From assembly GCA_016930175.1 (NCBI GenBank), contig JAFGHJ010000037.1, positions 1 to 35,629 of the forward strand: 35,629 bases of DNA, written 5' to 3'. This document shows, piece by piece, positions 331-22,405 of the stretch; position 1 is the stretch's first letter; each line of letters starts with the position of its first letter. Made by a program: the position numbers and the translations under genes. The stretch comes from Caldifarciminota bacterium. Its GTDB lineage: Bacteria > Hydrothermota > UBA3072. Below the pieces are notes generated by a model that was not told the origin of the DNA, made no database searches, and worked only from the letters and a program-made list of their open reading frames with translations.

Positions 331-409
331 AGCTTTCATATTTTCGCTTTTAGCCGTTAGCTTAAAGAAAAAATAAAAACTTTGTGTCTTAGTGGCTTTG
401 TGTGGGAGT
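331..409 (+). repeat. Intergenic heptamer array with A-rich and TTTGTGT tract
   Basis: Five units of 7 bases run from 331 to 365; three of them begin AGC. They are followed by an A-rich segment (366-380) and then a CTTTGTGT-type tract to about 407. This is one copy of a composite intergenic repeat seen repeatedly in the window. It fills the gap between the stop of the partial plus-strand gene and the stop of cutA, which converge here. Confidence 0.6.
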
Positions 410-727
410 TTATTGTTTCGTGGTTTCTTTCTTTATCCAGGAAAGATAATCGTTTAGACCTTCTTTAATTTCATAAGAAACGATTGCGGGAACTTCGTAG
501 GGATGAATTTCGTTCAATCTTTTTTCAACTTTTTTATATAAAGATTTCCTTGTCTTCATAATGAGCGCGTATTCCTTATCTTCTGTGAGTTTTCCATTCC
601 ATTTGTATATGGATTCTATGGGGAAAAAATTGACGCACGCGACCAAATTTTCTTCGACCAAAGTTTTAGCGATTTTTTTTGTTATAGCTTTATCGGGAAG
701 CGTTGTGTAAATCATTATGAATTTCAA
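410..727 (-). CDS. cutA: CutA-family divalent-cation tolerance protein
   Basis: The 105-residue product has the normal length of CutA1, a small trimeric ferredoxin-like protein. Family features visible in order are the N-terminal strand ending YTTLPD, the LVACVN segment (around residue 31), the YKW(N)GK turn (around 44), the acidic DKEYALIMKT strand and the HPYEVPAI motif near residue 77. CutA was named for copper tolerance in Escherichia coli, but its physiological role is unsettled. The start is ATG with an AAGGAGA ribosome binding site about 12 bases upstream. It follows the 90-aa gene by 18 bases and is probably co-transcribed with it. Confidence 0.93.
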   Translation of the reverse strand: MKFIMIYTTLPDKAITKKIAKTLVEENLVACVNFFPIESIYKWNGKLTEDKEYALIMKTRKSLYKKVEKRLNEIHPYEVPAIVSYEIKEGLNDYLSWIKKETTKQ

Positions 728-745
728 GATTCGTCTCCTTTACTT

Positions 746-1018
746 TTAATATGGGATCCAGATTTGTTGTGCGGCAATGATTTCGGCGTTTCCGGGTAGA
801 TTTATTTCTTCTTTTGTTCTTGCAAAGAAGACAAATCCTTTATAAGCCAGTAAATAATCGAAATCCTTTTTCATGAATCCTCCTCTCGATACTACAACAG
901 CAGGATTATCAGCCCGGGATATTACTTTAATAAAATCTTCCTCTTTTAATCTGACTATAACCCCTGAAGCTTTAATCGCATTTGCGATTGCGGCAGCGGC
1001 AGCTCCTCCTCCATTCAT
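746..1018 (-). CDS. Conserved hypothetical protein, 90 aa
   Basis: The product begins with a glycine/alanine-rich stretch (MNGGGAAAAA) followed by a helix, then a strand-rich region with VVVSRGGF near residues 42-49 and a C-terminal AAQQIWIPY. I recall similar short proteins starting MNGGGAAAAA in environmental bacterial genomes but know no function for them. There is no signal peptide or membrane segment, so it is probably cytoplasmic. A clear GGAGG lies 6-10 bases upstream of the ATG. It is the first gene of a likely two-gene unit with cutA and is separated from the upstream barrel-like gene by a strong terminator hairpin. Confidence 0.75.
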   Translation of the reverse strand: MNGGGAAAAAIANAIKASGVIVRLKEEDFIKVISRADNPAVVVSRGGFMKKDFDYLLAYKGFVFFARTKEEINLPGNAEIIAAQQIWIPY

Positions 1019-1072
1019 TTTTAACCTCCTTTTTTTATATTATTCATTTTTCAATAATTTATTCATAAAAAT

Positions 1073-1121
1073 TAAAGCACACAAAAAAAGCTTACAGAAA
1101 AGAGGTTTTTTGTGTGCTTTA
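1073..1121 (-). terminator. Rho-independent terminator of the 1142-1687 gene
   Basis: Bases 1073-1088 and 1106-1121 form a perfect 16-bp inverted repeat with a 17-base loop. Read on the minus strand the stem is followed by a T-rich run, which is the expected layout for termination just after the stop of the gene at 1142. The stem itself contains A6/T6 tracts, so it could work in both directions. Confidence 0.8.
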
Positions 1122-1141
1122 TTGATGTTATCTGCTTAAAG

Positions 1142-1687
1142 TTAAATGCTTATTTTTATTCCACCCCTTATGGGAATGTGAGTGTAATTGGCATCGTCGG
1201 CAAATATCATTCCGTAACCGGTTTCGGCAAATACCGCGAAAAGTCCCAGGCTCAAATTTAAACCACCGTAAACGAGAAATCCGCTGTCGGTTATGGAACC
1301 GTCGGCTCCGAGATATTCGCCGTAGTCGGTTCCTATCGTTGATATTTCGTAGCCGCCTCCGAGATAAAGAGATAGGGGCACAAGAGGAGGAGAAATCGAG
1401 TATTGAACTGCGATAAGAATAAAGATATCGGAAAGTTTGATGCCCCCGGCTGGAGTTTCTACATCTTTCCACGCGTATTCGATGTCTCCGCGGATGCCTA
1501 CCGGAATGATCGGCGGAGAGAAACTTGCTGTCAACCCGATTGCTTTAAGGGATTGGTTTTCCTCTCCCTCCGCGTCGAGTTTCCAGTTTTCTACCCCTCC
1601 GGTTATTCCGGCTTCTAAACCCAGAATCCCGGCAGAAAGAGGAACGCTTAAAAGTAATAAAATAGCACACAATGCTAATTTTTTCAT
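1142..1687 (-). CDS. Small exported outer-membrane beta-barrel-like protein
   Basis: The 181-residue product starts with a typical signal peptide (MKKLALCAILLLLSVPLSAG, cleavage after about residue 19). The rest is rich in glycine and in alternating hydrophobic strands, for example LSLYLGGGYEIST near 103-115 and GLFAVFAETGYGM near 147-159. The C-terminus ends in GGIKISI, as expected for a barrel strand. This pattern fits a small outer-membrane barrel of the OmpW/OmpA-like size class, but no specific family signature is visible and the ligand or role is unknown. The ATG is preceded by GGGAGG. A near-consensus promoter lies just upstream, divergent from the xylanase operon promoter, and a hairpin terminator follows the gene. 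Confidence 0.75.
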   Translation of the reverse strand: MKKLALCAILLLLSVPLSAGILGLEAGITGGVENWKLDAEGEENQSLKAIGLTASFSPPIIPVGIRGDIEYAWKDVETPAGGIKLSDIFILIAVQYSISPPLVPLSLYLGGGYEISTIGTDYGEYLGADGSITDSGFLVYGGLNLSLGLFAVFAETGYGMIFADDANYTHIPIRGGIKISI

Positions 1688-1725
1688 CTGACCTCCCTTT
1701 TTAGGTTGAGTTTGCTGCTTGGAAA

Positions 1726-1754
1726 ATCATAAGATTTTTCAAGGGAAATGTCAA
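1726..1754 (-). promoter_or_regulatory. Sigma70-type promoter for the 1142-1687 gene
   Basis: On the minus strand a perfect TTGACA (-35, plus-strand 1749-1754) is separated by 17 bases from TATGAT (-10, plus-strand 1726-1731). The -10 lies about 38 bases upstream of the start codon. Confidence 0.75.
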
Positions 1755-1762
1755 GGGTTTAC

Positions 1763-1790
1763 TTGACAGAGAGTGGAGAATTCTTATACT
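1763..1790 (+). promoter_or_regulatory. Sigma70-type promoter of the GH10-GH140-GH105 operon
   Basis: TTGACA at 1763-1768 is followed after 16 bases by TATACT at 1785-1790. The start codon of the xylanase gene is 42 bases downstream, preceded by AAAGGAGG. It is back-to-back with the minus-strand promoter at 1726-1754, only 8 bases separating the two -35 boxes. Confidence 0.75.
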
Positions 1791-1832: not shown

Positions 1833-3095
1833 ATGAAGATAAGTTTAATATTTTTATTTAGTTTTGCTCTTACCTTCATAGGAATTTTTTGTTTTGCCGA
1901 AGATGATGTTTCTAAAAAAATTACGGATGAAGCTATTGATGCGCGTATAGCTGAGATCAGGATGGGTGATATAATCGTAAAGACAGAACCTGGCGCGGAC
2001 GTTAAGATTGAACAGGTGCGTCATGAGTTTCTTTTCGGCGCAGCGATTACCGATAACCTGGCTGAAAAATCCGGAAACGCGATGTCGGATAAGGATAGAA
2101 GGAAATTTCTGGAAGTACTCGAAGATAATTTTAACTACGCTGTGCACGAAAATGCTTTAAAATGGTATGACACGGAAGTAGAATATAAGAAAGTGGATTA
2201 TTATTTGGCGGATAGAATTTATGAACTCTGCCATGAGCGTAATATACCTATGAGGGGGCACTGCATATTCTGGGCAAAGGATAAGTATGTTATGCCCTGG
2301 TTAAAGGAACTCGATAATGACGAGCTCAGAGCGGCTGTGGTTCGCCGGGCAACCGATGTCGCCAAGCATTTTAAAGGCAGGATAGACGAGTTCGACCTCA
2401 ACAATGAGATGATCAACGGTGATTTCTTCCGCCGTCGGTTGGGATACGGTATCGTAAATGAAATGGCGTGGATGGTTAAAGCGGTTAATCCCGATGCTAA
2501 ATTATATGTAAACGATTACGGTGTTCTTGTTGAAAATGGTTTTAATAAAAGCTCTTACATAACTCAAATCGAGAATCTTCTCGCGAACGGCGTCCCAATA
2601 GACGGAATAGGATGTCAGGCGCATTTCGTAACTTCTGATAAAAATAATTCCGCTGCCAGAGCCGCTACCACATCGGAACATGTTCAAAAAACGCTCGATG
2701 AGTTGTCAAAATTCGGTCTTCCGATAAAAATTACCGAATGTCTTGTTTCTGCGGATACGGAAGAAGGTAAAGCGGAAGAGCTGCGAAGATTTTTCCGTCT
2801 TTGCTTTGCTCATCCCGGTGTTGAGGCAATTATTATGTGGGGTTTCTGGGAGGTAGGACACTGGGTGCCCGAATCGGCGATGTGGAAAAAAGACTGGGCA
2901 CCAACGAAGCAGGCTCTTGCTTACCGTGACCTTGTTTTTAATAAGTGGTGGACTAAAGTATCCGGAAAAGCCGATAAGAAAGGAATATACAAAAACCGGG
3001 CTTTCTACGGCGATTATTTGATTACTTCGAACGAAGAGACTAAAAAAGTGACACTGAGCAAGAAAGACAAATCGATAGAGGTTAATTTTAAATAA
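1833..3095 (+). CDS. Secreted GH10 endo-1,4-beta-xylanase
   Basis: The enzyme is expected to hydrolyse internal beta-1,4 bonds of xylan. Residues 1-22 are a signal peptide (ends CFAEDD). The GH10 barrel shows the expected landmarks: HENALKW at 105-111, RGHCIFW at 141-147, the acid/base region FDLNNEM with Glu192, the QAHF histidine at 264, the nucleophile segment KITE with Glu302, and WGFWE at 336-340. The last 40 residues are a short tail without a recognisable binding module, and no T9SS sorting domain is present. The ATG follows AAAGGAGG. It is the first gene of an operon; the apiosidase-like gene begins 13 bases after its stop. Assignment to GH10 is firm; the exact substrate is inferred. 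Confidence 0.93.
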   Translation: MKISLIFLFSFALTFIGIFCFAEDDVSKKITDEAIDARIAEIRMGDIIVKTEPGADVKIEQVRHEFLFGAAITDNLAEKSGNAMSDKDRRKFLEVLEDNFNYAVHENALKWYDTEVEYKKVDYYLADRIYELCHERNIPMRGHCIFWAKDKYVMPWLKELDNDELRAAVVRRATDVAKHFKGRIDEFDLNNEMINGDFFRRRLGYGIVNEMAWMVKAVNPDAKLYVNDYGVLVENGFNKSSYITQIENLLANGVPIDGIGCQAHFVTSDKNNSAARAATTSEHVQKTLDELSKFGLPIKITECLVSADTEEGKAEELRRFFRLCFAHPGVEAIIMWGFWEVGHWVPESAMWKKDWAPTKQALAYRDLVFNKWWTKVSGKADKKGIYKNRAFYGDYLITSNEETKKVTLSKKDKSIEVNFK

Positions 3096-3108
3096 GGGAA
3101 AAAATCAT

Positions 3109-5001
3109 ATGAAATCTAAACCTTATATTAAGTTATCTTTTTTTGTTTGTTTTTTATTTTTTGTATGGTTTATGCCTTGTTCACTGGAAGGCGCGGGTTC
3201 TTCGGATATTCACGTATGGGAAATGCAGGAAATTACCCTTAAAGCTGAGAAGCATCACGATAACTATTACAAGGAGATAGAATGCTGGGTAGACCTTGAG
3301 GGTCCTGATTTCTCCAGACGGGTTTACGCTTTCTGGGATGGGAATAATGTTTTCCGTGTGAGGATAGTAGCAACTGTACCGGGTAAATGGACTTACCTGA
3401 GCGGCTCAAATCAAAAGGATGATAAAGGACTTAACAATCAAACCGGAGGATTTAATGCTGTGGCGTGGACTGAAGGAGAAAAGAAAGAGAATCCTAACCG
3501 CCGCGGATTTATTCGTTCTACATCAAACGGTCATGCATTACAATACGCTGACGGAACTCCTTTCTTTCTTGTTGGTGACACATGGCTTGCCGGGAGTACC
3601 TGGAGGCTGCCTTTCAGGGGCGTTGCCGCAACAGAGAATTATATACCTGGACCCGGTATAGGTTTTGAAGATGCGGTAGCTTATCGTAAGCAGCAGCGTT
3701 TTAATTCCGTCAGTATGATTGCATGTTTTCCGAACTGGGAATCCGATTACAATCCCAGTACTTACGCTGATAAGAAGGGCATTTATCTCAGAAATGCGTG
3801 GGAGAAATTTGACTATTACACTGAAGAAGGCAAGCTGACCGCCAAGAATATGCGTGATGAATACGGTAATCTCTCTTTTCAAATGTTATCCGAGCATAAA
3901 GGCGTCGCAGATTTTGACCGAATCAATCCTGACTATTTCAAAAGCCTGGATAAAAAAATGAAGCATTTATCTGATGAGGGTTTTGTGCCTTTGTTGGAGA
4001 CCGTGAGAAGAGATAACTGCCCGTCATGGAAGGCATATTTCGATTTTAATGAATCATACGCAAGGTATGTACAATATCTTATTTCAAGATACGGCGCGTA
4101 CAATATTATCTTCAGCGGAATTCATCTCGATTGGATTCCGAAGGAGTACAGCCTGACGGCTTTGGAGTTCAACAGGGCATTGACATATCATTTTAGAAAA
4201 TATGGGACTTTGCCTTTTGGTCAGCCCCACACAACCCTGATAAATAATTCCACATACACTCAGTTCGGTCATGGGGAAGATTGTCCGTGGCTTACAATGC
4301 ACAGTGTTGGTAATAAGCCGCGGGACCACCGTGTTTCCGATTCGATGGAGATACTTTTCAATCTCGAACCTGCATACCCTGCTATCAATTTTGAACCGTA
4401 TTATACCGGCTGGGACCATGAAATAAATATGCCAAATGGTGAACGACCGGCGGCTAATTCCGCCCGCGATAATTATTTCTCACGCGCGCAGATGTACGGG
4501 TCGGTTCTTTCGGGAGGACTTTCAGGACATGTTCACGGCACATCCGCTTATGATATAACTACGACCGGTGAACCTGAGGGTATGCGTCATTACTTCTGGG
4601 ATGCGTTGAGATTCAACTCCGCATCTTATATGCAGCATCTGAGCGCATTTATTTTGTCTGAGGGTAGTAAGTATCAAGAATTAGAGCTCTGTCACGGATC
4701 CGTACATCCGCGAAAGGCTGCCGGTAGTCCCGAAAAAGGTCTGGACGGCTGGGCATATATGATGTGTACTAAGGAAAAGGATTTCGCCCTTCTTTATTTT
4801 GAGACCCAATCGGTTCTTCCTAAATTGAGCGGTTTTAAAGAAAATGCATCATATAATTTTCAGTGGTTCAATCCGCGTAATGGCGAATGGATGAAGAACA
4901 TAGTCGTTAAATCAGATGAAAAAGGTTTCTTGAAATTGCCTTTTTTCCCCGACGGCGGAAATACATCTTCAACCGACTGGGCGGCTAAAATACGGGAATA
5001 G
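3109..5001 (+). CDS. Apiosidase-like glycoside hydrolase (DUF5060/DUF4038, GH140-related)
   Basis: After a signal peptide (residues 1-30) there is a DUF5060-type beta-sandwich (about 35-105, ending GKWTYLSG). A DUF4038 barrel follows, opening with GRxF-like and YADGTPFFLVGDTW motifs (145-159) and containing the LSGGLSGHVHG segment at 467-477. The C-terminal part (about 540-625) has FQWFNPRNGEW, characteristic of the PF12904 collagen-binding-like sandwich found at the end of these enzymes. Characterised relatives (GH140) remove apiose-containing side chains from rhamnogalacturonan II. The usual glutamate-bearing motif after RYGAY is replaced here by NIIFSGIHLDW (331-342), so the activity may differ; Glu429 in NFEPYY is a nucleophile candidate. 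It lies between xylanase and GH105 genes in one operon. Confidence 0.83.
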   Translation: MKSKPYIKLSFFVCFLFFVWFMPCSLEGAGSSDIHVWEMQEITLKAEKHHDNYYKEIECWVDLEGPDFSRRVYAFWDGNNVFRVRIVATVPGKWTYLSGSNQKDDKGLNNQTGGFNAVAWTEGEKKENPNRRGFIRSTSNGHALQYADGTPFFLVGDTWLAGSTWRLPFRGVAATENYIPGPGIGFEDAVAYRKQQRFNSVSMIACFPNWESDYNPSTYADKKGIYLRNAWEKFDYYTEEGKLTAKNMRDEYGNLSFQMLSEHKGVADFDRINPDYFKSLDKKMKHLSDEGFVPLLETVRRDNCPSWKAYFDFNESYARYVQYLISRYGAYNIIFSGIHLDWIPKEYSLTALEFNRALTYHFRKYGTLPFGQPHTTLINNSTYTQFGHGEDCPWLTMHSVGNKPRDHRVSDSMEILFNLEPAYPAINFEPYYTGWDHEINMPNGERPAANSARDNYFSRAQMYGSVLSGGLSGHVHGTSAYDITTTGEPEGMRHYFWDALRFNSASYMQHLSAFILSEGSKYQELELCHGSVHPRKAAGSPEKGLDGWAYMMCTKEKDFALLYFETQSVLPKLSGFKENASYNFQWFNPRNGEWMKNIVVKSDEKGFLKLPFFPDGGNTSSTDWAAKIRE

Positions 5002-5017
5002 GAGGCATGCTATAAAG

Positions 5018-6142
5018 ATGAACACAAAACGATTAAAAAATAGTATAAAAGTTGTTTCTCTTTACCTTTTATTGATAATTTTCTTAGTCGGATTTTTTTC
5101 GTGTAAAAAATGCGAGCTGAATGAATCCGTAACATTCTGGGCGGAAGGTAGTTCACCGGAAAAGATAGGAAGAATGATCATTGATGATTTGTTTACGAGG
5201 GCCGATTTTATGATGTATGTGACTGATTTCTGGACCGGTATCCATTATGCGGAAGCCTGTACTGGTTTTGGCGCTGCGCGCTTTGCCGGTTTATTGAATG
5301 ATTCGTATATTATTAATAAATTATCAGAGCGTTACATGAAAGTAATAGATGATAGTCTTGTAAAAGGTGCTGAGCATGTCGATGCAAATGTTTACGGGAT
5401 ATTACCCTTTGAGTTGTATATGCAGGGAGCCGGAGAAATATTTTTGCAGGAGGGGATTGAATTGGCTGACGAACAGTGGAAAGATACCCTTTCTAATGGA
5501 CTTACGAGTCAGGTAAGATACTGGATCGATGATTTGTGGATGATTGGCAGTTTACAGGTTCAGGCGTACAGGGCAACTGGTAATGAAATATATCTCAAAA
5601 GAGCGGCAAAAGTTGCCGAGGCTTATCTTAATAGATTGCAGCAGCCGAATGGATTATTTTATCACGGCGAAAACGCACCTTTTTTCTGGGGGAGAGGAAA
5701 CGGTTGGATGGCTGCAGGATTGGCTGAACTTTTATCGGAGCTTCCCGACAGCAGTAAATATTATGCTTCGATTCTTGAGGGTTATAAAAAGATGATGGAT
5801 GCATTATTAAAGTATCAGGCTGAAGACGGTATGTGGAGGCAGTTGATTGATAAGGAAGAGGCGTGGAAGGAGACTTCTTCGACTGCAATGTTCGGGTATG
5901 CTATAACTGTGGGAGTTAAAAAAGGGCTTTTGCCTGAAGATAAATTTACGCACTCTTATCAAAAAGCATGGTTATCTCTGGTTGAATACATAAATGAAGA
6001 TGGGAAAATAACCGATGTTTGTGCAGGTACGGGAAAAAGCGCTGATTTAGAATATTATTTAAATCGTCCGCGGAACACAGGAGATTTACACGGACAGGCT
6101 CCTGTTTTATGGTTCGCGTACAGCTTGTTGGCGAAATATTAG
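5018..6142 (+). CDS. GH105 unsaturated rhamnogalacturonyl hydrolase-like lipoprotein
   Basis: The family is an alpha6/alpha6 barrel that removes 4,5-unsaturated galacturonyl or glucuronyl residues from products of polysaccharide lyases. Motifs seen are RYWIDDLWMIGSLQ (168-180), in which an Asp (171 or 172) would be the catalytic acid as in YteR, FWGRGNGW at 223-230, and LHGQAPVLWF near the C-terminus. The N-terminus has a hydrophobic segment ending FFSC (Cys29), suggesting a lipoprotein. The length of 374 residues is normal for the family. No lyase gene is visible in this window, so the upstream enzyme must be elsewhere. The start is ATG at 5018, 16 bases after the previous stop, with GGAGG upstream. 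Confidence 0.87.
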   Translation: MNTKRLKNSIKVVSLYLLLIIFLVGFFSCKKCELNESVTFWAEGSSPEKIGRMIIDDLFTRADFMMYVTDFWTGIHYAEACTGFGAARFAGLLNDSYIINKLSERYMKVIDDSLVKGAEHVDANVYGILPFELYMQGAGEIFLQEGIELADEQWKDTLSNGLTSQVRYWIDDLWMIGSLQVQAYRATGNEIYLKRAAKVAEAYLNRLQQPNGLFYHGENAPFFWGRGNGWMAAGLAELLSELPDSSKYYASILEGYKKMMDALLKYQAEDGMWRQLIDKEEAWKETSSTAMFGYAITVGVKKGLLPEDKFTHSYQKAWLSLVEYINEDGKITDVCAGTGKSADLEYYLNRPRNTGDLHGQAPVLWFAYSLLAKY

Positions 6143-6177
6143 TTATTAGGTCTTAGGTTTTAGGTATTAGTGAAAAA
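6141..6177 (+). repeat. Heptamer array (four units) after the GH105 gene
   Basis: Four consecutive 7-base units starting AGT or AGG occupy 6141-6168 and are followed by AGTGAAAAA. The array begins inside the stop codon of the GH105 gene. It belongs to the same family as the arrays at 331, 7077, 14457, 14545, 21083 and 22252. Confidence 0.6.
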
Positions 6178-6224
6178 TAAAGTGAGGATTTCTGGCTAAA
6201 AATCAATCTGGAGGTGGGTAAATT

Positions 6225-7064
6225 GTGAGAAAATTATTTATTATAATTGCGATTATCCTTTTTTGTTTTTCCTGTGAGTCAATTAATGATGATCTTCAAA
6301 ATTATCTCGATTTACTGACCGAATACTCCTCGTATGATTATGAAGAAGTAAATAATATAGAATTTATTTATATGGATAGCAGCGATGAAAATCTTCGAGC
6401 CCTTAAAGAAGAATATAATTTAGAGACTATAGCGGGGGAAGGCGATGAGCTATCCCGGATAATGAACTTGATGTTATGGGTTAACGAAAATTTAGAACAC
6501 GATGGTAGTTCTGAAAATCCGTATCCACCGAATGCATCAAATATAATAGAGACTTGCTGGAATGAGGATAGGGGAGTGAACTGCAGAATGCTGTCTATCG
6601 TGCTTAATGACTTCTATTTATCCATGGGATTTAAATCGAGGTTCGTGACCTGTGAACCTTATGAATATGATTTTGATGATTGCCATGTAATAAATATTGT
6701 GTATTCGACTCAATTTGATAAGTGGATTATGGTGGACCCTTCTTTTGCCGGATACTTTAAGGATGAAAATGATACTTTTTTGGACCTTTTTGAAGTCAGA
6801 GAAAAATTAATCGATGATGAAGTTTTAGTTTTTAGCAGTCATTTAAATCATAACGGGGGTATATATACAGAGCAAGCTTATAGAGCCTATCTTGCAAAGA
6901 ATCTATTTCGCTTTTCATGTCCGATTGAAAGTGCGTTTAATTATGAGGCGCAGCCCTATAGCAGCCTGGAATATATAGAGTTAATTCCTTTGAACTATTC
7001 TTCGCCCGGGCAAGGCCGTTACATATATACTAGAAATCCGGATATTTTCTGGGCAGAACCGTAG
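6225..7064 (+). CDS. Transglutaminase-like cysteine protease-fold lipoprotein
   Basis: The 279-residue product has a lipoprotein signal ending CFSC (Cys17). A transglutaminase-like core follows with all three catalytic positions in order: Cys120 in GVNCRML, His154 in DDCHVINIVY and Asp171 in WIMVDPSF. The preceding helix (NLMLWVNENLEHDG, 81-94) is also typical. Prokaryotic members of this fold are mostly proteases or amidases, and no substrate can be deduced here. The start is GTG at 6225, chosen because GGAGGTGGG lies 8 bases upstream and the signal peptide begins at once. It is separated from the GH operon by a heptamer array and may be transcribed separately. It converges with the M20 gene. 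Confidence 0.78.
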   Translation: MRKLFIIIAIILFCFSCESINDDLQNYLDLLTEYSSYDYEEVNNIEFIYMDSSDENLRALKEEYNLETIAGEGDELSRIMNLMLWVNENLEHDGSSENPYPPNASNIIETCWNEDRGVNCRMLSIVLNDFYLSMGFKSRFVTCEPYEYDFDDCHVINIVYSTQFDKWIMVDPSFAGYFKDENDTFLDLFEVREKLIDDEVLVFSSHLNHNGGIYTEQAYRAYLAKNLFRFSCPIESAFNYEAQPYSSLEYIELIPLNYSSPGQGRYIYTRNPDIFWAEP

Positions 7065-7076
7065 GAGCTTTTAACC

Positions 7077-7116
7077 GGTTAAATCGTTAAATAGCTAAAT
7101 GGTCAAATAGTAAAAA
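7077..7116 (+). repeat. Octamer array (five units), convergent gap
   Basis: Five 8-base units run without interruption from 7077 to 7116. Four end in AAAT and the last reads AGTAAAAA. An A-rich stretch and a weak TCTTGTGT-like tract follow to about 7145. The unit sequence matches, in inverted orientation, the array at 9204-9235. It lies between the converging transglutaminase-like and M20 genes. Confidence 0.65.
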
Positions 7117-7169
7117 CAAAAAATCTTGTGTAATCTCGTGGTTTAATTAAAGGTAGAGTAAAGTTGTGT

Positions 7170-8312
7170 TTATTTGGTTGCCAGAGAATAAAATAATGCG
7201 GTGCCCAGGGGTAGTGCGTTTTCGTCGATATTGAATCTAGCAGTGTGAAGCTTGGATTGAATTCCCTTTTTCTTGTTGGCTCCTCCCATAAAGACAAAGG
7301 TGCCGGGCACTTCCTTTAAGTAATAGGCGAAGTCCTCTCCGCCCATAATCGGACTTTCCATAAGGTTTATTTCTTTAAATATACTTTTTGCGATTTTTAT
7401 TAAGCTTTCTGATTTTTTAGGGTCGTTTTTCAAAATCGGATATCCTCTCTGGTAAATAAGTTCATAGTCTATACCCGAGGAAATATTGAGACCTTTTAAA
7501 ATGTCACCGATCCATTCGGGTGCTTTTTGCCATAATTCTTTTTCTACTGTCCTTACCGTACCCAGCATTTTCACTTCTTCGGGTATTATATTGAATGCCG
7601 TTCCTCCGTTTATTGTACAGATCGAAATAACAAAGGGGCTTTTCGGGTCGGCTTTTCTGGAAACGAGACTCTGTGTTTGATTTATAAATAAAGAAGAAGC
7701 ATAAATCGGGTCTATTGATTTGTGCGGCTCTGCGGCGTGAGCTCCTTTACCTTTTATTGTAATTGTCATTTCATCCGCGGCTGCAAGCATAACTCCGGAT
7801 TTCAAGATCAGGGTACCAACTTCTGATTCCGGTTCAATATGAATGGCGTAAATTTCCGATATTCCTTTTAAGGCTCCTTCCTCAATCATTCCTTTCGCTC
7901 CTCCGGGAATTTTTTCCTCGGAAGGTTGAAAAATAAATCTTACCGGAGGAGGATTTTTCTCCTCGGATAAGAGCTTTGCAGCTCCGAGAAGCATTGCCAT
8001 ATGTGTATCGTGTCCGCAGGCATGCATATACCCTTTGTTTTGGGATTTATGCGGCAGAGAGTTTTCTTCCTCGATAGGCAGAGCATCCATATCCGCGCGT
8101 AACGCTATTCGATTTTTACCTTTACCGATATCCGCTGTAAGCCCTGTTTTATTTAAAGTCTTTGGTTTATATCCGAGATTTTTAAGTTGTTTTTCGATAA
8201 AATCGTGCGTCCATTTTTCTTTGAACGCGGGTTCGGGATGTTTGTGGAGTTCTCGTCGAGTATTTATTATGTATTCTCTAATTGAGTTTGCTTTTTTGAG
8301 CTCGTTTTTCAT
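7170..8312 (-). CDS. M20 family amidohydrolase (N-acyl-amino acid/hippurate hydrolase type)
   Basis: The protein belongs to peptidase family M20, subfamily D, whose members cleave N-acyl or amide bonds of amino-acid conjugates with two metal ions. Visible motifs are RRELHKHPE (19-27), RADMDALPI (72-80), the metal site HACGHDTH with Cys99 and His101, the QPSEE pair at 129-133, the GAHAAEPH lid-domain segment and the C-terminal GGEDFAYY. The 380-residue length is standard and no signal peptide is present, so it should be cytoplasmic. The ATG has no Shine-Dalgarno sequence, and a promoter-like pair ends 6 bases before it, so the message may be leaderless. The specific acyl-amino acid substrate cannot be told. 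Confidence 0.93.
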   Translation of the reverse strand: MKNELKKANSIREYIINTRRELHKHPEPAFKEKWTHDFIEKQLKNLGYKPKTLNKTGLTADIGKGKNRIALRADMDALPIEEENSLPHKSQNKGYMHACGHDTHMAMLLGAAKLLSEEKNPPPVRFIFQPSEEKIPGGAKGMIEEGALKGISEIYAIHIEPESEVGTLILKSGVMLAAADEMTITIKGKGAHAAEPHKSIDPIYASSLFINQTQSLVSRKADPKSPFVISICTINGGTAFNIIPEEVKMLGTVRTVEKELWQKAPEWIGDILKGLNISSGIDYELIYQRGYPILKNDPKKSESLIKIAKSIFKEINLMESPIMGGEDFAYYLKEVPGTFVFMGGANKKKGIQSKLHTARFNIDENALPLGTALFYSLATK

Positions 8313-8318
8313 TAATGT

Positions 8319-8346
8319 AATTTATTAAAAAATGCGCTTAAATCAA
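8319..8346 (-). promoter_or_regulatory. Candidate promoter of the M20 gene, possibly leaderless
   Basis: On the minus strand TTGATT (plus 8341-8346) and TAAATT (plus 8319-8324) are 16 bases apart. The -10 ends only 6 bases upstream of the ATG at 8312, placing a likely transcription start at or next to the start codon. Confidence 0.45.
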
Positions 8347-8357
8347 GGGTAATAAAA

Positions 8358-8460
8358 CACGCAGATTTATAGAGGTTTGAAGCGTTATTATGAAATTATT
8401 AAAAATCATAATAATAAGGGGAAGGGGGTTTCCTTTAAGCGAAAATCATAAATCTGCGTG
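8358..8460. repeat. 13-bp perfect inverted repeat in the gap between two minus-strand genes
   Basis: Bases 8358-8370 (CACGCAGATTTAT) and 8448-8460 are exact reverse complements, 77 bases apart. The loop contains a G-rich run at 8418-8429. The arms resemble the ACGCAGAT-type phrase found again at 21037-21056. It could act in termination of the 8478-9032 gene, but the spacing is large for a simple terminator. Confidence 0.5.
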
Positions 8461-8477
8461 CTTTAAAGGAGTAGTTC

Positions 8478-9032
8478 CTATTCGATTGATATCTTTACTT
8501 TTTCATGTTCATCGTCAACCTCTACGAGGGTAAAGCTCCCTTCGACTTTTTGTATTTGTTTAATCGCTTTCCTGATGAATATTTTGGTTTCTTCGATGTG
8601 TTCAGCATCTTCGCCCACTTCGGGCAAAAGGAAAGGCAGTATCTTTACCAGGGTTAAAGGCAGCCGTATATTTACGTTTTCTTCTTCATTTTCGCTTTGA
8701 ACATTTATATGCAGTCTTTTAGGGGTGCCGGTTTTGTTTACTATATCTTTACTGTCTCTTACCCAGAAGCGAACAATATCTTCTCCCTCCGTGATTTCAA
8801 TAACCGGTTCGTCGCCTATTCCCGCTTCCTGTAAGATCTTAAGAATGCTGTCCGGCGGGATTTTTTTGCCGTCGATATCTATATCCCAATCTTCGTCGCA
8901 ACTTTTCGCAAACTCGACAGATTCTTCAATCAAAGTTTTCGGTACGTTGACCCTGACCTTTTCTCCGTCTTTTTCCGTGACTTCTAAAGTTAGAAAAGGT
9001 ATAGCCAAATTTAACAAAATAAATAAATTCAT
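8478..9032 (-). CDS. Hypothetical protein with duplicated DUF2089/SHOCT-like module
   Basis: The 184-residue product contains two similar halves. Each starts with a beta segment rich in charged residues followed by a (V/L)P-x-(T/L)-L-(I/V) helix start: LTLEVTEKDGEKVRVNVPKTL at about 15-35 and LHINVQSENEEENVNIRLPLTL at about 107-128. Each half ends with a strand pair (PVIEITEGEDIVRFWV and TLVEVDDEHEKVKISIE). This arrangement resembles the C-terminal module found in DUF2089/SHOCT-like proteins, here in tandem. The N-terminus is mildly hydrophobic but not a convincing signal peptide. AAGGAGGA precedes the ATG. A stand-alone gene with its own promoter; function unknown. Confidence 0.7.
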   Translation of the reverse strand: MNLFILLNLAIPFLTLEVTEKDGEKVRVNVPKTLIEESVEFAKSCDEDWDIDIDGKKIPPDSILKILQEAGIGDEPVIEITEGEDIVRFWVRDSKDIVNKTGTPKRLHINVQSENEEENVNIRLPLTLVKILPFLLPEVGEDAEHIEETKIFIRKAIKQIQKVEGSFTLVEVDDEHEKVKISIE

Positions 9033-9060
9033 AAGTCCTCCTTTTATATATTGTACTAAT

Positions 9061-9088
9061 ATAATAATACAAAATCAAAATTTGTCAA
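9061..9088 (-). promoter_or_regulatory. Promoter of the 8478-9032 gene
   Basis: Minus-strand TTGACA (plus 9083-9088) is followed after 16 bases by TATTAT (plus 9061-9066), about 28 bases before the ATG. Confidence 0.65.
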
Positions 9089-9105
9089 GGGTATTTTTGA
9101 TTTTT

Positions 9106-9235
9106 TGCCACAAAGGCACTAAGGCACAAAGAATTTTTGTTGTTTTTTTTCTTCTTGGACTCCTGAAGCCTTAAATTAACCACAAGGGGTGCGGAAATTT
9201 TTTGCTATTTTACTATTTTTCCATTTAACTATTTA
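9106..9235. repeat. Composite intergenic repeat: CACAAAG tract plus octamer array
   Basis: The 306-base gap between the divergent gene at 9032 and the GH30 gene holds two modules. A CACAAAGGCAC-type tract with an A/T-rich TTGTTGTTTTTTTT segment lies at 9106-9150. An array of four 8-base units lies at 9204-9235. On the minus strand these units match those at 7077-7116. The rest of the gap contains promoters for the flanking genes and no open reading frame of note. Confidence 0.55.
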
Positions 9236-9268
9236 ACGCCGATGCGAACAATCTTTTAATTGTGGTTC

Positions 9269-9296
9269 TTGACACAATTGTTAAATTCCTTAAATT
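9269..9296 (+). promoter_or_regulatory. Candidate promoter of the GH30-GH8-GH8 cluster
   Basis: TTGACA at 9269-9274 is followed after 16 bases by TAAATT at 9291-9296. The -35 is perfect and the -10 is weak. The GH30 start codon is 43 bases downstream, preceded by AAAGGAGG. Confidence 0.45.
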
Positions 9297-9338
9297 AGGT
9301 ATAAAGGTAAAATAAGGCTATAATAAAGGAGGATAGAA

Positions 9339-10958
9339 ATGAAGGAATTTAAACTTTTATTTATTTGTTTTTTTGTTGTGGTGGGGATGATTGTTCCTGC
9401 CCGGAATGGTGTTCTTGCCGCTACGGCGACTGTCGATACAAGTGAAGTTCATCAGACGATGGAAGGTTTTGGCGCATCGGTTGCCTGGGAAGTCTGGCAG
9501 CTTTACAGTCATGATAAAAATAGTGAAGTTTATAATTATTTATTCAACGAACTTGGGTTGGATATCCTTCGCCTGCGGAATGTATATTCCAGAGGTGAGG
9601 ATTATATTTTTGGAAATTATGAATCGATTGTGGATAGCTTTTACGCTTATTCCGATCCTAATACCACTCCGAAAATTATAATATCTTCCTGGACTCCTCC
9701 CACAGATTTGAAGAGTAACAATAATCTTGTTGGCGGTACCCTGGATAAAATAGGTGGTGAATATGTGTATGGTGATTTTGTCCAGTACTGGATGGATGCC
9801 TTAGCCGAGTTTGAAGAGTATGGAATCGTACCTGATTATATCAGTATTCAGAATGAACCCGACTGGGGTCAGGATCATGCAACATGCAGATTTGGTCCGA
9901 CTGAAAATACTACGTATGCTGGTTATGATCAGGCTCTTGATTCGCTTTACCATAGGGTGCAGGAATTATCACCTACTCCAAAGATTCTGGGACCCGAAGT
10001 TTTAGGTATAGACTATAATAATTTTCAAAATTATGCCACCCAGTTTAATCAAGATTATGTGGATGGTTATGCTTATCATCTCTATCACGGTAACAACACT
10101 AATCCCGATGATTATATAACAAGATTGTCGGCGATAGCAAATAACTACAAAGGAAAACCTATCTTTCAGACAGAGTTTGATAGAGGCGGTTGGTTTAATA
10201 CGGCCTGGCTAATGCACAACTGTCTGGTTCATGGGAATGTTTCCGGGTATTTATACTGGTGGTCGGTGGTAGGTTCGTTTACGCCCGAGAATCCGCCGTT
10301 GATAACGCTGAACGGAAGTACAGCATATACGATGAATCAAATTTACTGGGCATTCAGGCAGTATTCCAAAGCCATTCATTCCGGCTGGAAAAGGGTTGGG
10401 GCGAGTGTAGATGAAGATAGCCTTAAGATATCGGCTTTTGTTAGCCCCGGAAATGACGAGTTATCCATTATAATACTTAATGTGAGTCATAGTGAAAATT
10501 CTGTGGATTTAAATGTTTCGGATTTTAATATTTCCGGAGCGAATATGCTTCGAACATCAGAAGAAGAGAAATGCGACTATATCGGTAATTATAATGGTTC
10601 TGCTGTAGATCTTCCTGCAAGATCGATTACTACGATTTCAACCCTGTATATTGAAGATGTGTCGGGTATCGAAGAGGAAGATTATGATTCTCCGGCTGCG
10701 GTTTGCCTTTCTCAGAATTATCCTAATCCCTTCAGCGCGTCGACGACTATCGAGTACTCTATAGCGGATGCGGGTTTTGTTAAACTTTCGATTTATGATA
10801 TTTCGGGTAGAGAGGTAGAAACTTTAGTTGAAGAAGTTAAGCCTGCAGGAAAATATACCGTTAATATCGACGCGAAGGGTTTATCGCAGGGAGTTTATTT
10901 CTATCGGTTGAAAACCTCTGGTAATAGTCTTCAAAAGAAGATGATTTTGCTTAAATGA
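9339..10958 (+). CDS. Secreted GH30 glucuronoarabinoxylan-type xylanase with T9SS sorting domain
   Basis: After a signal peptide (residues 1-28) the mature protein opens with HQTMEGFGAS, the classic GH30 start. The barrel carries SSWTPP at 116-121, the acid/base in ISIQNEPDW (Glu173) and the nucleophile in FQTEFDRG (Glu279), followed by a YLYWW strand. The small beta-sandwich typical of GH30 follows to about residue 445. The overall layout is closest to the subfamily 8 enzymes that cut xylan at glucuronic-acid decorations; whether the decoration-binding arginine is present was not established. A linker (SGIEEEDYDSP) leads to a T9SS type A domain (about 460-539: NYPNPF, LSIYDISGRE, GVYFY, ending KMILLK). 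It starts a three-gene GH cluster. Confidence 0.9.
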   Translation: MKEFKLLFICFFVVVGMIVPARNGVLAATATVDTSEVHQTMEGFGASVAWEVWQLYSHDKNSEVYNYLFNELGLDILRLRNVYSRGEDYIFGNYESIVDSFYAYSDPNTTPKIIISSWTPPTDLKSNNNLVGGTLDKIGGEYVYGDFVQYWMDALAEFEEYGIVPDYISIQNEPDWGQDHATCRFGPTENTTYAGYDQALDSLYHRVQELSPTPKILGPEVLGIDYNNFQNYATQFNQDYVDGYAYHLYHGNNTNPDDYITRLSAIANNYKGKPIFQTEFDRGGWFNTAWLMHNCLVHGNVSGYLYWWSVVGSFTPENPPLITLNGSTAYTMNQIYWAFRQYSKAIHSGWKRVGASVDEDSLKISAFVSPGNDELSIIILNVSHSENSVDLNVSDFNISGANMLRTSEEEKCDYIGNYNGSAVDLPARSITTISTLYIEDVSGIEEEDYDSPAAVCLSQNYPNPFSASTTIEYSIADAGFVKLSIYDISGREVETLVEEVKPAGKYTVNIDAKGLSQGVYFYRLKTSGNSLQKKMILLK

Positions 10959-12445: not shown

Positions 12446-13594
12446 ATGAGAAGAGGAGATATTTTAATTATAGTGGTTCTTTTTTCGGGAGCCAGTCTCT
12501 TGGGTCAGAAAAGACTGTTCCCTCAAAATGTGGATTACCCTTACGGTTATAAAACCTCGGTAATTTCCGCGATAGATGTACAGATTCCTTACGAGAGATG
12601 GAAAAATTTATATTTAAAAAGATGCGGTGAGACGTATCGTGTTTGCACGGGAGATACCGCGATAACCATTTCGGAAGGTATGGGTTACGGGATGTTGTTG
12701 ACAGCATATTTCGGGGAGAAGAAATGGTTTGACAGACTTTTTGAATTTTATAAAACTAAAAGAACGGATAAAGCGCATAATCTTATGGCATGGAAGGTAA
12801 CCTGTGGTAGTATTATCGATCCCGGAAGCGCTACCGACGGGGATTTAGATGTCGCGTTCGCTCTTATCGTCGCTCATTATCAATGGGGAGAAAATTACCT
12901 TAAAGAGGCAAAAAATATAATTTCGAGCCTTAAAGAGCATTATTTCGTTAACTGTGAGGGCATTTACACTATGAAGCCGGGAGGGCATTGGGGCGGTTGT
13001 GATATAACGGATATATCGTATTACTCACCCGCTTACTTTCGAGTGTTCGCGGAAGAAACCGATGATGCATTCTGGGATACAGTGGCAGACGATGCTTATA
13101 CGATATTATACAACGGAGCCAATGAAAATACGGGATTGGTTCCGGACTGGCAGTCGTACGACGGTGTTCCTGGCGGTACTTCAGATTCGGATTGGGAATG
13201 GATAGATTATTATCGCTATGACGCCTGCAGGGTTCCGTGGAGAATGGCTCTGGATTACATCTGGAATGGAAGTCAGGATGCCCGCGATTGGTGTGTTAAA
13301 ATATCAAACTTTGCCGATTCTATCGGAGCAGCCAATATAATTGACGGATATAGGTTGGATGGGAATCCCCATCCGGATGCGAAGTGGAATAATACTCCTT
13401 TTGTGGGGGGATTCGCAGTTGGTGGAATGAGTCACAGTCAGGCTATGGTCGATTCGTTTTCCTTAAGATTATTATATCTTGATGGTACGGGAGAGGACGA
13501 TCAGTATTTCAATCTTTCGCTTCGGTGTTTGTACGAGCTTGTTTTAACGGGTAATTTCTGGAAACCTGGTGCCGCGAATACAGATATAAGGTAA
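12446..13594 (+). CDS. Secreted GH8 paralogue lacking a sorting domain
   Basis: This 382-residue protein aligns with the preceding GH8 product along its whole catalytic domain. It has the same FPQNV(N/D)YPYGYKTS opening, SEGMGYGM with Glu77, ATDGDLDVAFAL, LVPDWQSYDGVPGG and YDACRVPWR. Short stretches are nearly identical in DNA as well, so it is a tandem duplication that has since diverged. It stops shortly after NFWKPGAAN, just where the first copy begins its linker, and so has no T9SS domain. The signal peptide (residues 1-20) suggests a periplasmic or otherwise non-T9SS fate. The ATG at 12446 was chosen over the longer frame from 12338 because CGGAGGAAA sits 9 bases upstream and a signal peptide follows. 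Confidence 0.9.
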   Translation: MRRGDILIIVVLFSGASLLGQKRLFPQNVDYPYGYKTSVISAIDVQIPYERWKNLYLKRCGETYRVCTGDTAITISEGMGYGMLLTAYFGEKKWFDRLFEFYKTKRTDKAHNLMAWKVTCGSIIDPGSATDGDLDVAFALIVAHYQWGENYLKEAKNIISSLKEHYFVNCEGIYTMKPGGHWGGCDITDISYYSPAYFRVFAEETDDAFWDTVADDAYTILYNGANENTGLVPDWQSYDGVPGGTSDSDWEWIDYYRYDACRVPWRMALDYIWNGSQDARDWCVKISNFADSIGAANIIDGYRLDGNPHPDAKWNNTPFVGGFAVGGMSHSQAMVDSFSLRLLYLDGTGEDDQYFNLSLRCLYELVLTGNFWKPGAANTDIR

Positions 13595-14385: not shown

Positions 14386-14456
14386 TAGCTTTATAAATAT
14401 GCTGTTAACCTTAATAGAAACTTAGTTTTTTATATCGCTATAGTTGACTGATGCTT

Positions 14457-14640
14457 AGGTTTCGAGGGTTTAAGGACTCAAGGGTTCGAGTAAAAAACAA
14501 AACTAAAAACTTTGTGTTCTTTGTGTACTTTGTGTGAGTAATTTAGTAATAAGTCACTTGTCATTAGTCAGAAAAACAAAACAACAAAAAAATCTCTGTG
14601 TGCTCTGTGTGTTCTTTTTTTTCTCTGTGTCCTCTGTGGT
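14457..14640 (+). repeat. Composite intergenic repeat with octamer and heptamer arrays
   Basis: Two complete copies of the composite repeat stand in tandem. The first has five 8-base units at 14457-14496, each beginning AG and the last reading AGTAAAAA, then an A-rich segment and a three-unit 9-base tract of CTTTGTGT type (about 14510-14537). The second has four 7-base units at 14545-14572, the AAACAAAACAACAAAAAAATC segment (about 14575-14594 and following) and a CTCTGTGT-type tract to 14640. It fills the gap between the converging methyltransferase and spermidine-synthase-like genes. The heptamer copy reappears inverted at 21063-21110. Confidence 0.7.
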
Positions 14641-20583: not shown

Positions 20584-20959
20584 TAAAAACCTCTCTTAAG
20601 GAAAATCCGATTTGGAAAGTTGAACTTTCTGTTGAAAATAAATATGCGAAACGGACTATAAAAATGGGTGGCAAACCGCTTTCAGAAGTATCTTCCCTTG
20701 TCCTTGTAACTTTTGCTATTCCTATCTCTGGTAGAATCGAAAATTTTTGCCCTAGAAAAATTTCTTTACCCAAAGATATTCCGTAAAGTCTCACTTCATA
20801 ATCGCTTTTAGTATAGTATGAAGCAATAAGATCGTAGTTAACTTTATATTTTTCTCCAATCATTACGGAGAACCCGGAAGGAGTATCTAATGCTGCTGCA
20901 CCCTGTGGAACCGAAGAACTTACGAACAAGTTAAAGCCAACGAGCAAAATTATATTCAT
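20531..20959 (-). CDS. Small exported beta-barrel-like protein
   Basis: The 142-residue product has a signal-like N-terminus (MNIILLVGFNLFVSSS) and then a series of amphipathic strands, such as KVNYDLIASYYTKSDYEVRLYG (39-60), ending in a phenylalanine-rich C-terminus (LDFGIGFRM) typical of outer-membrane barrels. No specific family is recognised. It is the first gene of the six-gene operon. No Shine-Dalgarno sequence precedes the ATG, and a promoter-like pair ends about 6 bases upstream, so the transcript may be leaderless. Its 3' end overlaps the next gene by 53 bases in another frame. Confidence 0.68.
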   Translation of the reverse strand: MNIILLVGFNLFVSSSVPQGAAALDTPSGFSVMIGEKYKVNYDLIASYYTKSDYEVRLYGISLGKEIFLGQKFSILPEIGIAKVTRTREDTSESGLPPIFIVRFAYLFSTESSTFQIGFSLREVFNEEPGFDFLDFGIGFRM

Positions 20960-20965
20960 ATCTGA

Positions 20966-20993
20966 ATATTAAAAAACTATTTAAATTTGTCAA
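20966..20993 (-). promoter_or_regulatory. Candidate promoter of the six-gene minus-strand operon
   Basis: Minus-strand TTGACA (plus 20988-20993) is separated by 16 bases from TAATAT (plus 20966-20971). The -10 lies 6 bases upstream of the ATG at 20959, which would give a leaderless or nearly leaderless message. Confidence 0.5.
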
Positions 20994-21008
20994 CAGTTGA
21001 AAAACATT

Positions 21009-21120
21009 TACCACGGAGAACACAGATATAATAGGACGCAGATGAACGCAGATTGAAAAGGATTTTTTTGTTGTTTTGTTTTTTTGACTAATGACCAGTG
21101 ACAAGTGACTTAGTTGACTA
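21009..21120 (-). repeat. Composite intergenic repeat, inverted relative to the copy at 14545
   Basis: From left to right on the plus strand there is a CCACGGAGAACACAG tract (21012-21026), an ACGCAGATGAACGCAGATTG phrase (21037-21056), a T-rich segment, and four 7-base units at 21083-21110. Reverse-complemented, the heptamers and the A-rich segment closely match 14552-14594. The copy sits between the divergent operon promoter and tatA. Confidence 0.65.
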
Positions 21121-21142
21121 ATTCAAAGAATCCTTTGGGGTA

Positions 21143-21171
21143 TTGACTTTTGCCTTTTCTGGTTTTAGTAT
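21143..21171 (+). promoter_or_regulatory. Candidate promoter of tatA-tatD
   Basis: TTGACT at 21143-21148 is followed after 17 bases by TAGTAT at 21166-21171; the tatA ATG is at 21191 with AAGGAGGA just upstream. Confidence 0.5.
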
Positions 21172-21190
21172 AACAAAAAGGAGGAAATCA

Positions 21191-21388
21191 ATGTTTGGAC
21201 CTATTGGATGGCCCGAAATAATAATTATATTGATTATTGCCCTCTTATTGTTCGGCGCAAAAAGATTACCTGAAATAGGCAGGTCAATGGGAAAGGCGAT
21301 AAGAGAATTCAAAAAGTCTTTTAAAGATGTAACGGACGAATTGGACAACGATGAGTTGAATTCCTCTGAGAAAAAAGAAAAAAAGTAA
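21191..21388 (+). CDS. tatA: Sec-independent protein translocase subunit TatA
   Basis: The 65-residue product has the standard TatA/E form: a short N-terminus, a single membrane helix (WPEIIIILIIALLLFG, residues 7-22), the FGxxxLPEIG hinge, an amphipathic helix (RSMGKAIREFKKSFKD) and a charged lysine- and glutamate-rich tail. TatA forms the pore for export of folded proteins. The start at 21191 is fixed by AAGGAGGA and by the expected short N-terminus; the frame is open further upstream but has no ribosome binding site there. tatC and tatB are not in the window. Confidence 0.93.
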   Translation: MFGPIGWPEIIIILIIALLLFGAKRLPEIGRSMGKAIREFKKSFKDVTDELDNDELNSSEKKEKK

Positions 21389-21423
21389 CTTTAATTTAAA
21401 CTGAAATAATCTTTTCCGGTACG

Positions 21424-22185
21424 ATGAATTTCAAAATATGTGATTCGCATTGTCATCTTCAGGACAGAAGATTCAGAGGGGAAGTCGAAGAAGTTATACG
21501 TAGCGCCAGGGAATCCGGTGTGGAAAAAATATTGGTTCCCGGATGGGATCTTCGCTCAAGTAGGGAAGCGGTAGTTATCTCGGAGAAGTTTGATGATGTT
21601 TATTCGGCTTGCGGGGTTCATCCTCATGACGCGAAATTTTACAATGATAGCGTTGAGAGAGAAATAATAAAGCTGTCCAAGAGTAAAAATGTAGTGAGTA
21701 TAGGAGAAATAGGTCTTGATTATTATAGAGACCTCTCTCCGAGAAATGTACAAAAAGATGTGTTCGAAAGGCAGCTTAGAGTCGCCGAAGAGAACGATCT
21801 TCCTGTAATTATACATACAAGGGATTCGATTGAGGATACGATAGAAATAGTTACAAGATTTAACTGTAAGGGTGTTTTTCACGCTTTTGATTATACTAAG
21901 AATTTTGCAATGAAGATTATAGAAATGGGTTATTTTATAGGGGTAGGCGGAGTCGTTACTTACCCTAACAGTAAGATATTTTCTTCTATAAAGGAAATTC
22001 CGCTTACTTCTGTTTTGGTTGAGACTGACGCTCCGTATTTAACGCCTCAACCGCATAGGGGTAGAAGAAATGAACCCTCATATACAAAATATGTGGTTAA
22101 AAAAATCGCGGAACTAAAGTCTAAAAGTTTTGAGGAAGTTGCAGAGAAAACATACAACAATACAAAAAAATTATTTGGAATTTAG
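21424..22185 (+). CDS. tatD: TatD family metal-dependent DNase
   Basis: The 253-residue protein carries the complete TatD metal site: DSHCHL near residue 7 (two histidines), CGVHPHDA (62-69), GEIGLDYYRD (98-107) with the bridging Glu, VIIHTRD, a GVFHAFD histidine and ETDAPYL near 206-212. TatD proteins are TIM-barrel 3'-5' exonucleases; the link with the Tat system is mainly genomic. It begins 35 bases after tatA without a strong ribosome binding site and is likely co-transcribed with it. Confidence 0.94.
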   Translation: MNFKICDSHCHLQDRRFRGEVEEVIRSARESGVEKILVPGWDLRSSREAVVISEKFDDVYSACGVHPHDAKFYNDSVEREIIKLSKSKNVVSIGEIGLDYYRDLSPRNVQKDVFERQLRVAEENDLPVIIHTRDSIEDTIEIVTRFNCKGVFHAFDYTKNFAMKIIEMGYFIGVGGVVTYPNSKIFSSIKEIPLTSVLVETDAPYLTPQPHRGRRNEPSYTKYVVKKIAELKSKSFEEVAEKTYNNTKKLFGI

Positions 22186-22251
22186 AAACCGGCAGGGGAA
22201 TGAAAAAAGGACTTTGTACACCTTGCATGTTTTTCAATTAGTTGATGTTTA

Positions 22252-22405
22252 AGGCTCGAGGTTCCAAGGTTTCCAGGTTTCAAGGGTTCAAGTAAAAACA
22301 ACAAAAAAATCCCTGTGTTCTTTTTGGCTTTGCGTGAAAATCATTTTGGTGGTGTGGTTTGGGTTCTAAACAACAAAAAATCTTTGTGCTCTCTGTGTTA
22401 AACTG
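22252..22405 (+). repeat. Composite intergenic repeat with octamer array
   Basis: Octamers beginning AGG run from 22252 to 22290 and end with AGTAAAAA at 22291-22298. The CAACAAAAAAATC segment and a CCCTGTGTTC tract follow, and then a second A-rich plus CTCTGTGT tract at 22371-22405. The layout is the same as at 14457. It occupies most of the 300-base gap between tatD and the membrane-protein gene. Confidence 0.68.

Follow-up and report, generated by a model that had tools for sequence, protein, structure and literature searches.

The stretch analysed here, called the window below, comprises 35,629 nucleotides (contig JAFGHJ010000037.1 of assembly GCA_016930175.1) and is contig 46 of the 2.34 Mb draft genome of a Caldifarciminota bacterium. 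Its intergenic gaps carry short tandem arrays of 7- or 8-base units, several of which pass into an A-rich joint and then into a tail of TGTG-containing words (Table 1). Across many gaps of this genome the layout is (7/8-mer array)-(A-rich joint)-(9/10-mer TGTG/TGCG words)-(G-rich stretch)-(joint)-(second tail), in one polarity. Here, we describe these cassettes, their relatives in other genomes and the explanations that may account for them.

Table 1. Array, joint and tail modules in the window (TRF, Tandem Repeats Finder; scan, tandem periodicity scan).
Position	Strand	Feature	Detection and remarks
328..363	+	Weak 7/8-mer array AGCTTTCATATTTTCGCTTTTAGCCGTTAGCTT	By eye; missed by TRF and scan
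363..409	+	A-rich joint, then tail CTTTGTGTCTTAGTGGCTTTGTGTG	Plain; tail word is one of 6 exact genome matches
6137..6180	+	Heptamer array TTAGGTN (6137-6170, period 7) with A-rich end, without tail	Clear; TRF, scan
7071..7146	+	Octamer array GTTAAATN (7071-7115), joint AAAAACAAAAAATC, tail variant CTTGTGTAATCTCGTGGTTT	Clear; TRF, scan
9108..9152	-	Joint AAAAAAAACAACAAAAATT, then tail CTTTGTGCCTTAGTGCCTTTGTGG	
9200..9237	-	Octamer array GTTAAATN with A-rich end	Clear; TRF, scan
14456..14536	+	Four octamers of GGTTTCGA type (14456-14493), joint AGTAAAAAACAAAACTAAAAA, tail of three 9-mers CTTTGTGTN	Array visible, under scan score cut-off
14545..14638	+	Heptamer array of TTAGTCA type (14545-14573), joint AAAAACAAAACAACAAAAAAAT, tail CTCTGTGTN twice, spacer, CTCTGTGTCCTCTGTGG	Array visible, under scan score cut-off
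21011..21120	-	Heptamer array (21085-21120), joint (21062-21084), 10-mer word ATCTGCGTTC (21034-21055), 9-mer word (21011-21026)	Array found by TRF
22259..22342	+	Octamer array AGGTTTCA (22259-22292), joint AGTAAAAACAACAAAAAAATC, tail	Clear; TRF, scan
22343..22412	+	G-rich module GGTGGTGTGGTTTGGG, second joint TAAACAACAAAAAATC, second tail	Order recurs in other gaps
29686..29763	.	Inverted octamer array pair: GTTRGTGN arm, T-run, other-strand GTTRGTCN arm	Scan (29686-29721), TRF; RNA fold z = -4.2

For the periodicity scan, the window and 388 kb more from the same genome (424 kb in total) were scored for mismatch-tolerant tandem periodicity, with dinucleotide shuffles as the control. Degenerate tandem arrays were found 23 times at period 7, 20 times at period 8 and 12 times at period 9, that is, 55 versus 0 in the shuffles (7 versus 0 in the window alone), and each remaining period within 4-24 gave 0-6 arrays. 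The counts for the genome draw on a sample of 424-558 kb, together with whole-genome pattern counts. Because part of the sample was picked for tail matches, absolute array densities may be somewhat high, while the contrast between periods is unaffected. An earlier note on this DNA, made from the letters alone, had claimed arrays in at least seven gaps; four of the arrays are clear, the one at 21085-21120 is picked up by TRF, two are visible under the cut-off, and the one near 331 is weak and escaped both programs. The inverted pair at 29686 had been overlooked in it.

The same note had claimed that unit length is fixed within an array while the letters drift, and this is borne out: identity at a lag of one unit is 0.74-0.77, versus 0.26-0.31 at other lags. 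With arrays picked on the two-unit lag, which leaves the one- and three-unit lags free, the 7-mers of the window genome gave 0.741 at one unit and 0.744 at three units, and those of other phyla 0.776 and 0.774 (about 0.26 at other lags in both sets). A closer likeness of neighbouring units is therefore rejected, since the first estimate of it came from arrays picked on that very lag and the corrected test is free of any gradient. Within the words, some positions are fixed and others are free, as in GTTRGTSN (56 units), whose fixed positions are partly imposed by collecting the units with a pattern. The two arms of the inverted octamer elements differ, with GTTRGTG prevailing in one and GTTRGTC in the opposite one. 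Heptamer and octamer arrays coexist in one genome and either may precede the same joint and tail, so that the two do not form separate classes.

The modules are linked to each other. With arrays oriented so that the A-rich side lies downstream, a joint (at least 9 A in 14) is present at 57% of arrays versus 36% of random intergenic points, and 13 of 63 arrays (20.6%) have both an A-rich stretch and, no more than 75 bases on, a tail after it, versus 3.6% of such points. The order of array, A-rich joint and TGTG tail has constant polarity. The consistent order of modules that had been claimed holds as an enrichment and not as a universal rule, and the joint is not constant but rich in A. Independence of joint and tail, which the earlier note had named as a refuting outcome, is not what was found, as 23 gaps hold both array and tail versus 15.3 expected from gap length (p = 0.0045). 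The tail units are either 9-mers (CTTTGTGTN, CTCTGTGTN, TTTCGTGNG) or 10-mers (ATCTGCGTTY). The 10-mer family (ATCTGCGTTY / AATCCGTGTA), seen at 21034-21055 and in many other gaps of this genome, occupies the place of the 9-mer tail and seems to have a TGYG core in common with it.

An all-versus-all comparison of gaps revealed homologous cassettes of 120-230 bases with 68-80% identity, the same module order and E values down to 1e-52. Copies differ by whole units, for example, by a 21-base gap (three heptamers) in one pair of copies on L009 and by gaps of 7, 8, 8 and 16 bases elsewhere, although, of the 12 gaps inside arrays in the gap-size analysis, only 5 were whole units. In the window, the array at 14545 is homologous, on the opposite strand, to the element at 20960-21142 and differs from the array there by one heptamer. 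Since gap copies align over 120-230 bases and differ by whole units, the cassettes constitute a dispersed family. Another dispersed repeat, of about 225 bases and 68% identity, lies between genes at 31577-31795 of the window and at about 18909-19132 of L008, with the motifs GTCAATTT-CCCTGCGAGG...CCGAGAC.

According to a simple caller of open reading frames (ORFs), only 7 of 63 arrays and 5 of 86 tails lie inside ORFs, in a genome that is about 89% coding. Of the tail core CTYTGTG, 250 copies lie outside ORFs and 101 within them, versus 24 and 73 for the reversed control. As for the genes between the cassettes, positions 1833-10958 contain a run for polysaccharide degradation (GH10, apiosidase-like, GH88, transglutaminase-like and GH30-like), whose GH30-like gene carries a Por_Secre_tail sorting domain. 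The adjacent genes at 10984-12420 and 12446-13594 are visibly alike and look like a tandem duplication.

Outside this genome, the family is distributed unevenly. The own genome has 29 exact matches to CTTTGTGTYCTTTGTG and a congener has 1; a second genus of the family has 43 and a second family of the phylum 31. Across the 60 phylum genomes compared the count is mostly 0, and the pattern read backwards gives 0 throughout. In 378 kb of the congener, 4 period-7 and 2 period-8 arrays were found, which is several times rarer than in the own genome. The tail 21-mer CTTTGTGTYCTTTGTGGTTAA, in turn, forms at least 120 exact stretches in GTDB contigs of roughly a dozen phyla, where about 0.2 would be expected by chance according to our own calculation. 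Among the matches listed, the carriers are Bacteroidota, Chloroflexota, Planctomycetota, Verrucomicrobiota and relatives, Acidobacteriota, Desulfobacterales, Calditrichia, Spirochaetes, Cyanobacteria, Sumerlaeota, Desantisbacteria, WOR-3 and Gammaproteobacteria. In other phyla the 21-mer frequently forms an arm of an inverted repeat, AACCACAAAG...CTTTGTGGTT, with the ends AACCAC...GTGGTT. Loci of other phyla, picked solely by the tail, contain 65 period-7 arrays versus 0 in shuffles, some of which adjoin the tail via an A-rich joint, and one Calothrix genome has 379 matches to a shorter tail pattern. A viral origin is rejected, as just 11 IMG/VR stretches hold the 21-mer.

Turnover and spelling were followed in 47 genomes of one Holophagaceae genus, in which a species writes the word as CTTTGTG or CTTCGTG. 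The counts of CTTTGTGNYCTTTGTG and CTTCGTGNYCTTCGTG separate by species (0/51, 0/32, 0/22, 49/2, 48/2 and 25/1), and mixed cases also occur (e.g., 105/38). At one orthologous convergent gap, a CTTTGTG hairpin in genome G070 corresponds to a similar CTTCGTG hairpin in relatives, and two relatives have no hairpin. Three further gaps (sites A-C) were compared in a collinear stretch of 20 kb between G070 and relatives about 94% identical to it. The element at site A is present in G070, G124 and G116 and absent from G117 and G093, and that at site B is present only in G070. At site C, G070 has two hairpins, G117 has one with two extra 9-mers, and the others have an older GC-rich hairpin. Because close relatives differ at these three gaps, gain, loss and change of unit number at orthologous gaps are evident; direction and exact ends are not settled by them, and insertion and deletion are not distinguishable at every site because no clean empty site with a target duplication was found. 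The stretches thus change fast, close species differing in both gap occupancy and spelling, and the mobility that the earlier note had suggested is supported in the sense of movement or fast turnover. A GC-rich palindrome, TCGGAATCGGCTGCGCCGATTCCGA (L350, L348, L323), lies at the convergent gap that bears word hairpins in G070 and G117, and next to the second hairpin of G070 there is still a diverged remnant of this palindrome. In addition, at L313 13960-14040 and the orthologues in G117, G124 and G116, an ORF-sized stretch of about 670 bases is found in three relatives and is missing from the same gap in G070 and G093.

We favour, at a probability of about 40%, the explanation that the arrays belong, as modules, to a family of dispersed intergenic repeats that is non-coding and non-autonomous and is spread by host copying of short segments. 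While DNA is replicated or repaired, a short single strand or hairpin of one intergenic copy would act as the template or donor elsewhere, by template switching or ectopic conversion. Purifying selection would remove insertions inside genes, and array length would shift via whole-unit slippage. The conserved word positions would reflect descent from a few recent donors, and perhaps also recognition by a host factor, while the dialects would record which donor was amplified in each lineage. Host copying would account for most of the data without a dedicated enzyme.

Several points weigh against this explanation. Copying within lineages alone leaves the cross-phylum sharing of the tail word unexplained, and the cross-phylum identity together with the genome-wide dialects is what host copying explains least well; the two give the strongest hint of a recognition factor. 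Units one and three apart are equally similar, unlike the prediction of plain slippage. Insertion and deletion, as noted above, are not separable at every site. The gain and loss were seen in Holophagaceae and not in the genus of the window, whose only relative is about 70% identical and thus too distant, so that an orthologous-gap comparison there was dropped. Moreover, the absence of candidate enzymes described below rests on drafts of uncertain completeness and hence is not proof. A further and doubtful proposal is that the tail is one member of a class of intergenic tandem words that spans the bacteria. The consensus of the class, read on the opposite strand, would be CRCNRAK (CACAAAG, CACGAAG, CACAGAG, CGCAGAT), and a trans-acting factor that copies or recognises the words would change their spelling throughout the genome from one sister species to the next, without a known mobile-element enzyme.

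An unlikely alternative is that the elements resemble miniature inverted-repeat transposable elements or REPINs (hairpin doublets of repetitive extragenic palindromes, REPs), with ends AACCAC...GTGGTT, and that a transposase acting in trans recognises the tandem words in their arms. Inverted hairpin doublets, some near-perfect palindromes, do occur across phyla, in Holophagaceae and Gemmataceae copies (L153, z = -7.8; L139) and at 29686-29763, and the presence or absence at orthologous gaps and the genome-wide dialects, which recall transposon subfamilies, would fit as well. However, most window copies are one-armed and fold no better than shuffles, no clear target duplication was seen at sites A-C, and the Y1 transposases (PF01797), which include the REP-associated tyrosine transposases (RAYTs), do not track copy number in the 60 phylum genomes or in the 47 genus genomes. 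The single Y1 (RAYT-like) gene of the window genome is flanked by inverted repeats of another type than the tail words. With this and the lack of tracking in these genomes, a Y1 transposase was rejected as a probable driver. That gene lies at about 8900-10100 of L254 (contig C29 of the genome, about 64510), where it is flanked by inverted copies of AAATTACACATTCTGGTCGCGGAA with a G-rich stretch after them, which may be its own REP element. A heptamer array, CCGGATG, lies near a Y1 transposase gene in G042 (L269 839-894).

The earlier note had also suggested templating by a reverse transcriptase that tracks with copy number. This did not hold, as PF00078 (RVT_1) does not track copy number in the 47 genus genomes and its hits occur in low-copy genomes. 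The two richest drafts, G070 and G117, as well as the draft of G093, have no hit to PF00078 or PF01797. A reverse transcriptase as the driver, whether of a retroelement or of a diversity-generating retroelement product, is thereby made unlikely.

Rather unlikely is a role as binding sites of host proteins or as RNA signals (terminators, 3' end or 5' leader elements) selected at gene borders. The confinement to gaps, the fixed word positions, the even similarity along arrays and the convergent gap that retains its hairpin while the spelling changes would agree with such a role, as would the placement of elements in 31-33% of convergent versus 18-23% of codirectional gaps. However, gaps of every orientation are affected, and close relatives do without the element at the same gap. 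The window copies also give folding z scores of only -1.0 to +1.7 apart from the pair at 29686-29763, which rules out RNA hairpins as a general property of them, and a known structured RNA family is rejected, as an Rfam search of the window at the gathering threshold gave zero matches.

That the arrays are ordinary simple sequence repeats (SSRs), made by polymerase slippage and then altered by point mutation, is improbable, and could hardly be the full explanation. Slippage is supported by the whole-unit gaps that separate homologous copies, and heptamers are the most frequent long SSRs in many bacteria, going by the citation of Mrazek 2007 in a later paper (PMC4679880). The gradient between neighbours is absent, the same words recur at many loci, ordered cassettes are homologous over 200 bases, and exact 21-mers are common to many phyla. 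The earlier remark that the drift is odd for slippage is therefore right as to the flat similarity along arrays (0.741 versus 0.744) and is qualified by the whole-unit differences between copies. Finally, uptake-type sequences for natural transformation, which the sister-species dialects and inverted pairs might recall, are very improbable, because CTYTGTG is enriched outside ORFs and is near background inside them (101 versus 73 reversed), whereas the uptake sequences of Haemophilus and Neisseria abound in coding DNA, and tandem arrays are atypical of them.

To our knowledge, the origin of the degenerate intergenic words of 7 to 10 letters in many bacteria has been open since the cyanobacterial heptamer repeats were described. 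A literature search with the literal words gave no relevant paper, and no description of the composite cassette, the cross-phylum CTTTGTG family or its dialects was found in literature from which most subscription papers were outside the search. The ordered modules, the letter-identical cross-phylum word, the dialects and the gain and loss at orthologous gaps now provide a testable handle, and reverse transcriptases and REP-type transposases have become unlikely drivers in one genus. If the factor were identified, a rapid and perhaps general way in which gene borders change would be explained.

Among known systems, the likeness to cyanobacterial heptamer repeats claimed in the earlier note is supported. 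The short and long tandemly repeated repetitive sequences (STRR and LTRR) of heterocystous cyanobacteria are also tandem 7-mers in gaps, the TTAGTCA-type arrays (14545, 21085) may resemble STRR words, and CTTTGTGTYCTTTGTGGTTAA was found, among the matches listed, in Calothrix and Dulcicalothrix; here, however, degenerate 7-, 8-, 9- and 10-mers coexist and are linked into ordered cassettes. The GGGANTN of Xanthomonas and the GGGGA(T/C)T of Nostoc are degenerate intergenic heptamers of fixed length with conserved and free positions, whose length and sequence vary at one gap between close relatives; they differ in having a single G-rich word per genome, discussed with a focus on quadruplex formation, and no A-rich joint or tail is described for them (PMC4692102). 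The intergenic TAACTGA heptamers of Beggiatoaceae, cyanobacteria and Bacteroidetes share the tandem arrangement, the sporadic spread across phyla and 7-base indels between strains, whereas they consist of one exact word whose near-variants are rarely repeated and in Beggiatoaceae lie mostly just upstream of start codons (PMC4679880). The arrays of the present genome agree with all these in having tandem 7-base units mostly outside ORFs (23 versus 0 in shuffles), and depart from a repeat of one word and one length in the enrichment of periods 8 and 9 and in dozens of consensus units. REPINs are likewise short, inverted, hairpin-forming repeats that are extragenic and dispersed, and they are tied to RAYTs (PMC3116915); no RAYT was found in the high-copy genomes tested here, and the arms are tandem word arrays instead of one conserved 16-mer. 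The small dispersed repeats of cyanobacteria (Elhai 2008), as described in a citing paper, are similar in being very small, dispersed and possibly mobile (PMC2884548). Degenerate intergenic heptamer arrays are thus already known (STRR, GGGANTN, TAACTGA), and what is new here is their composite, cross-phylum and dialect-switching form.

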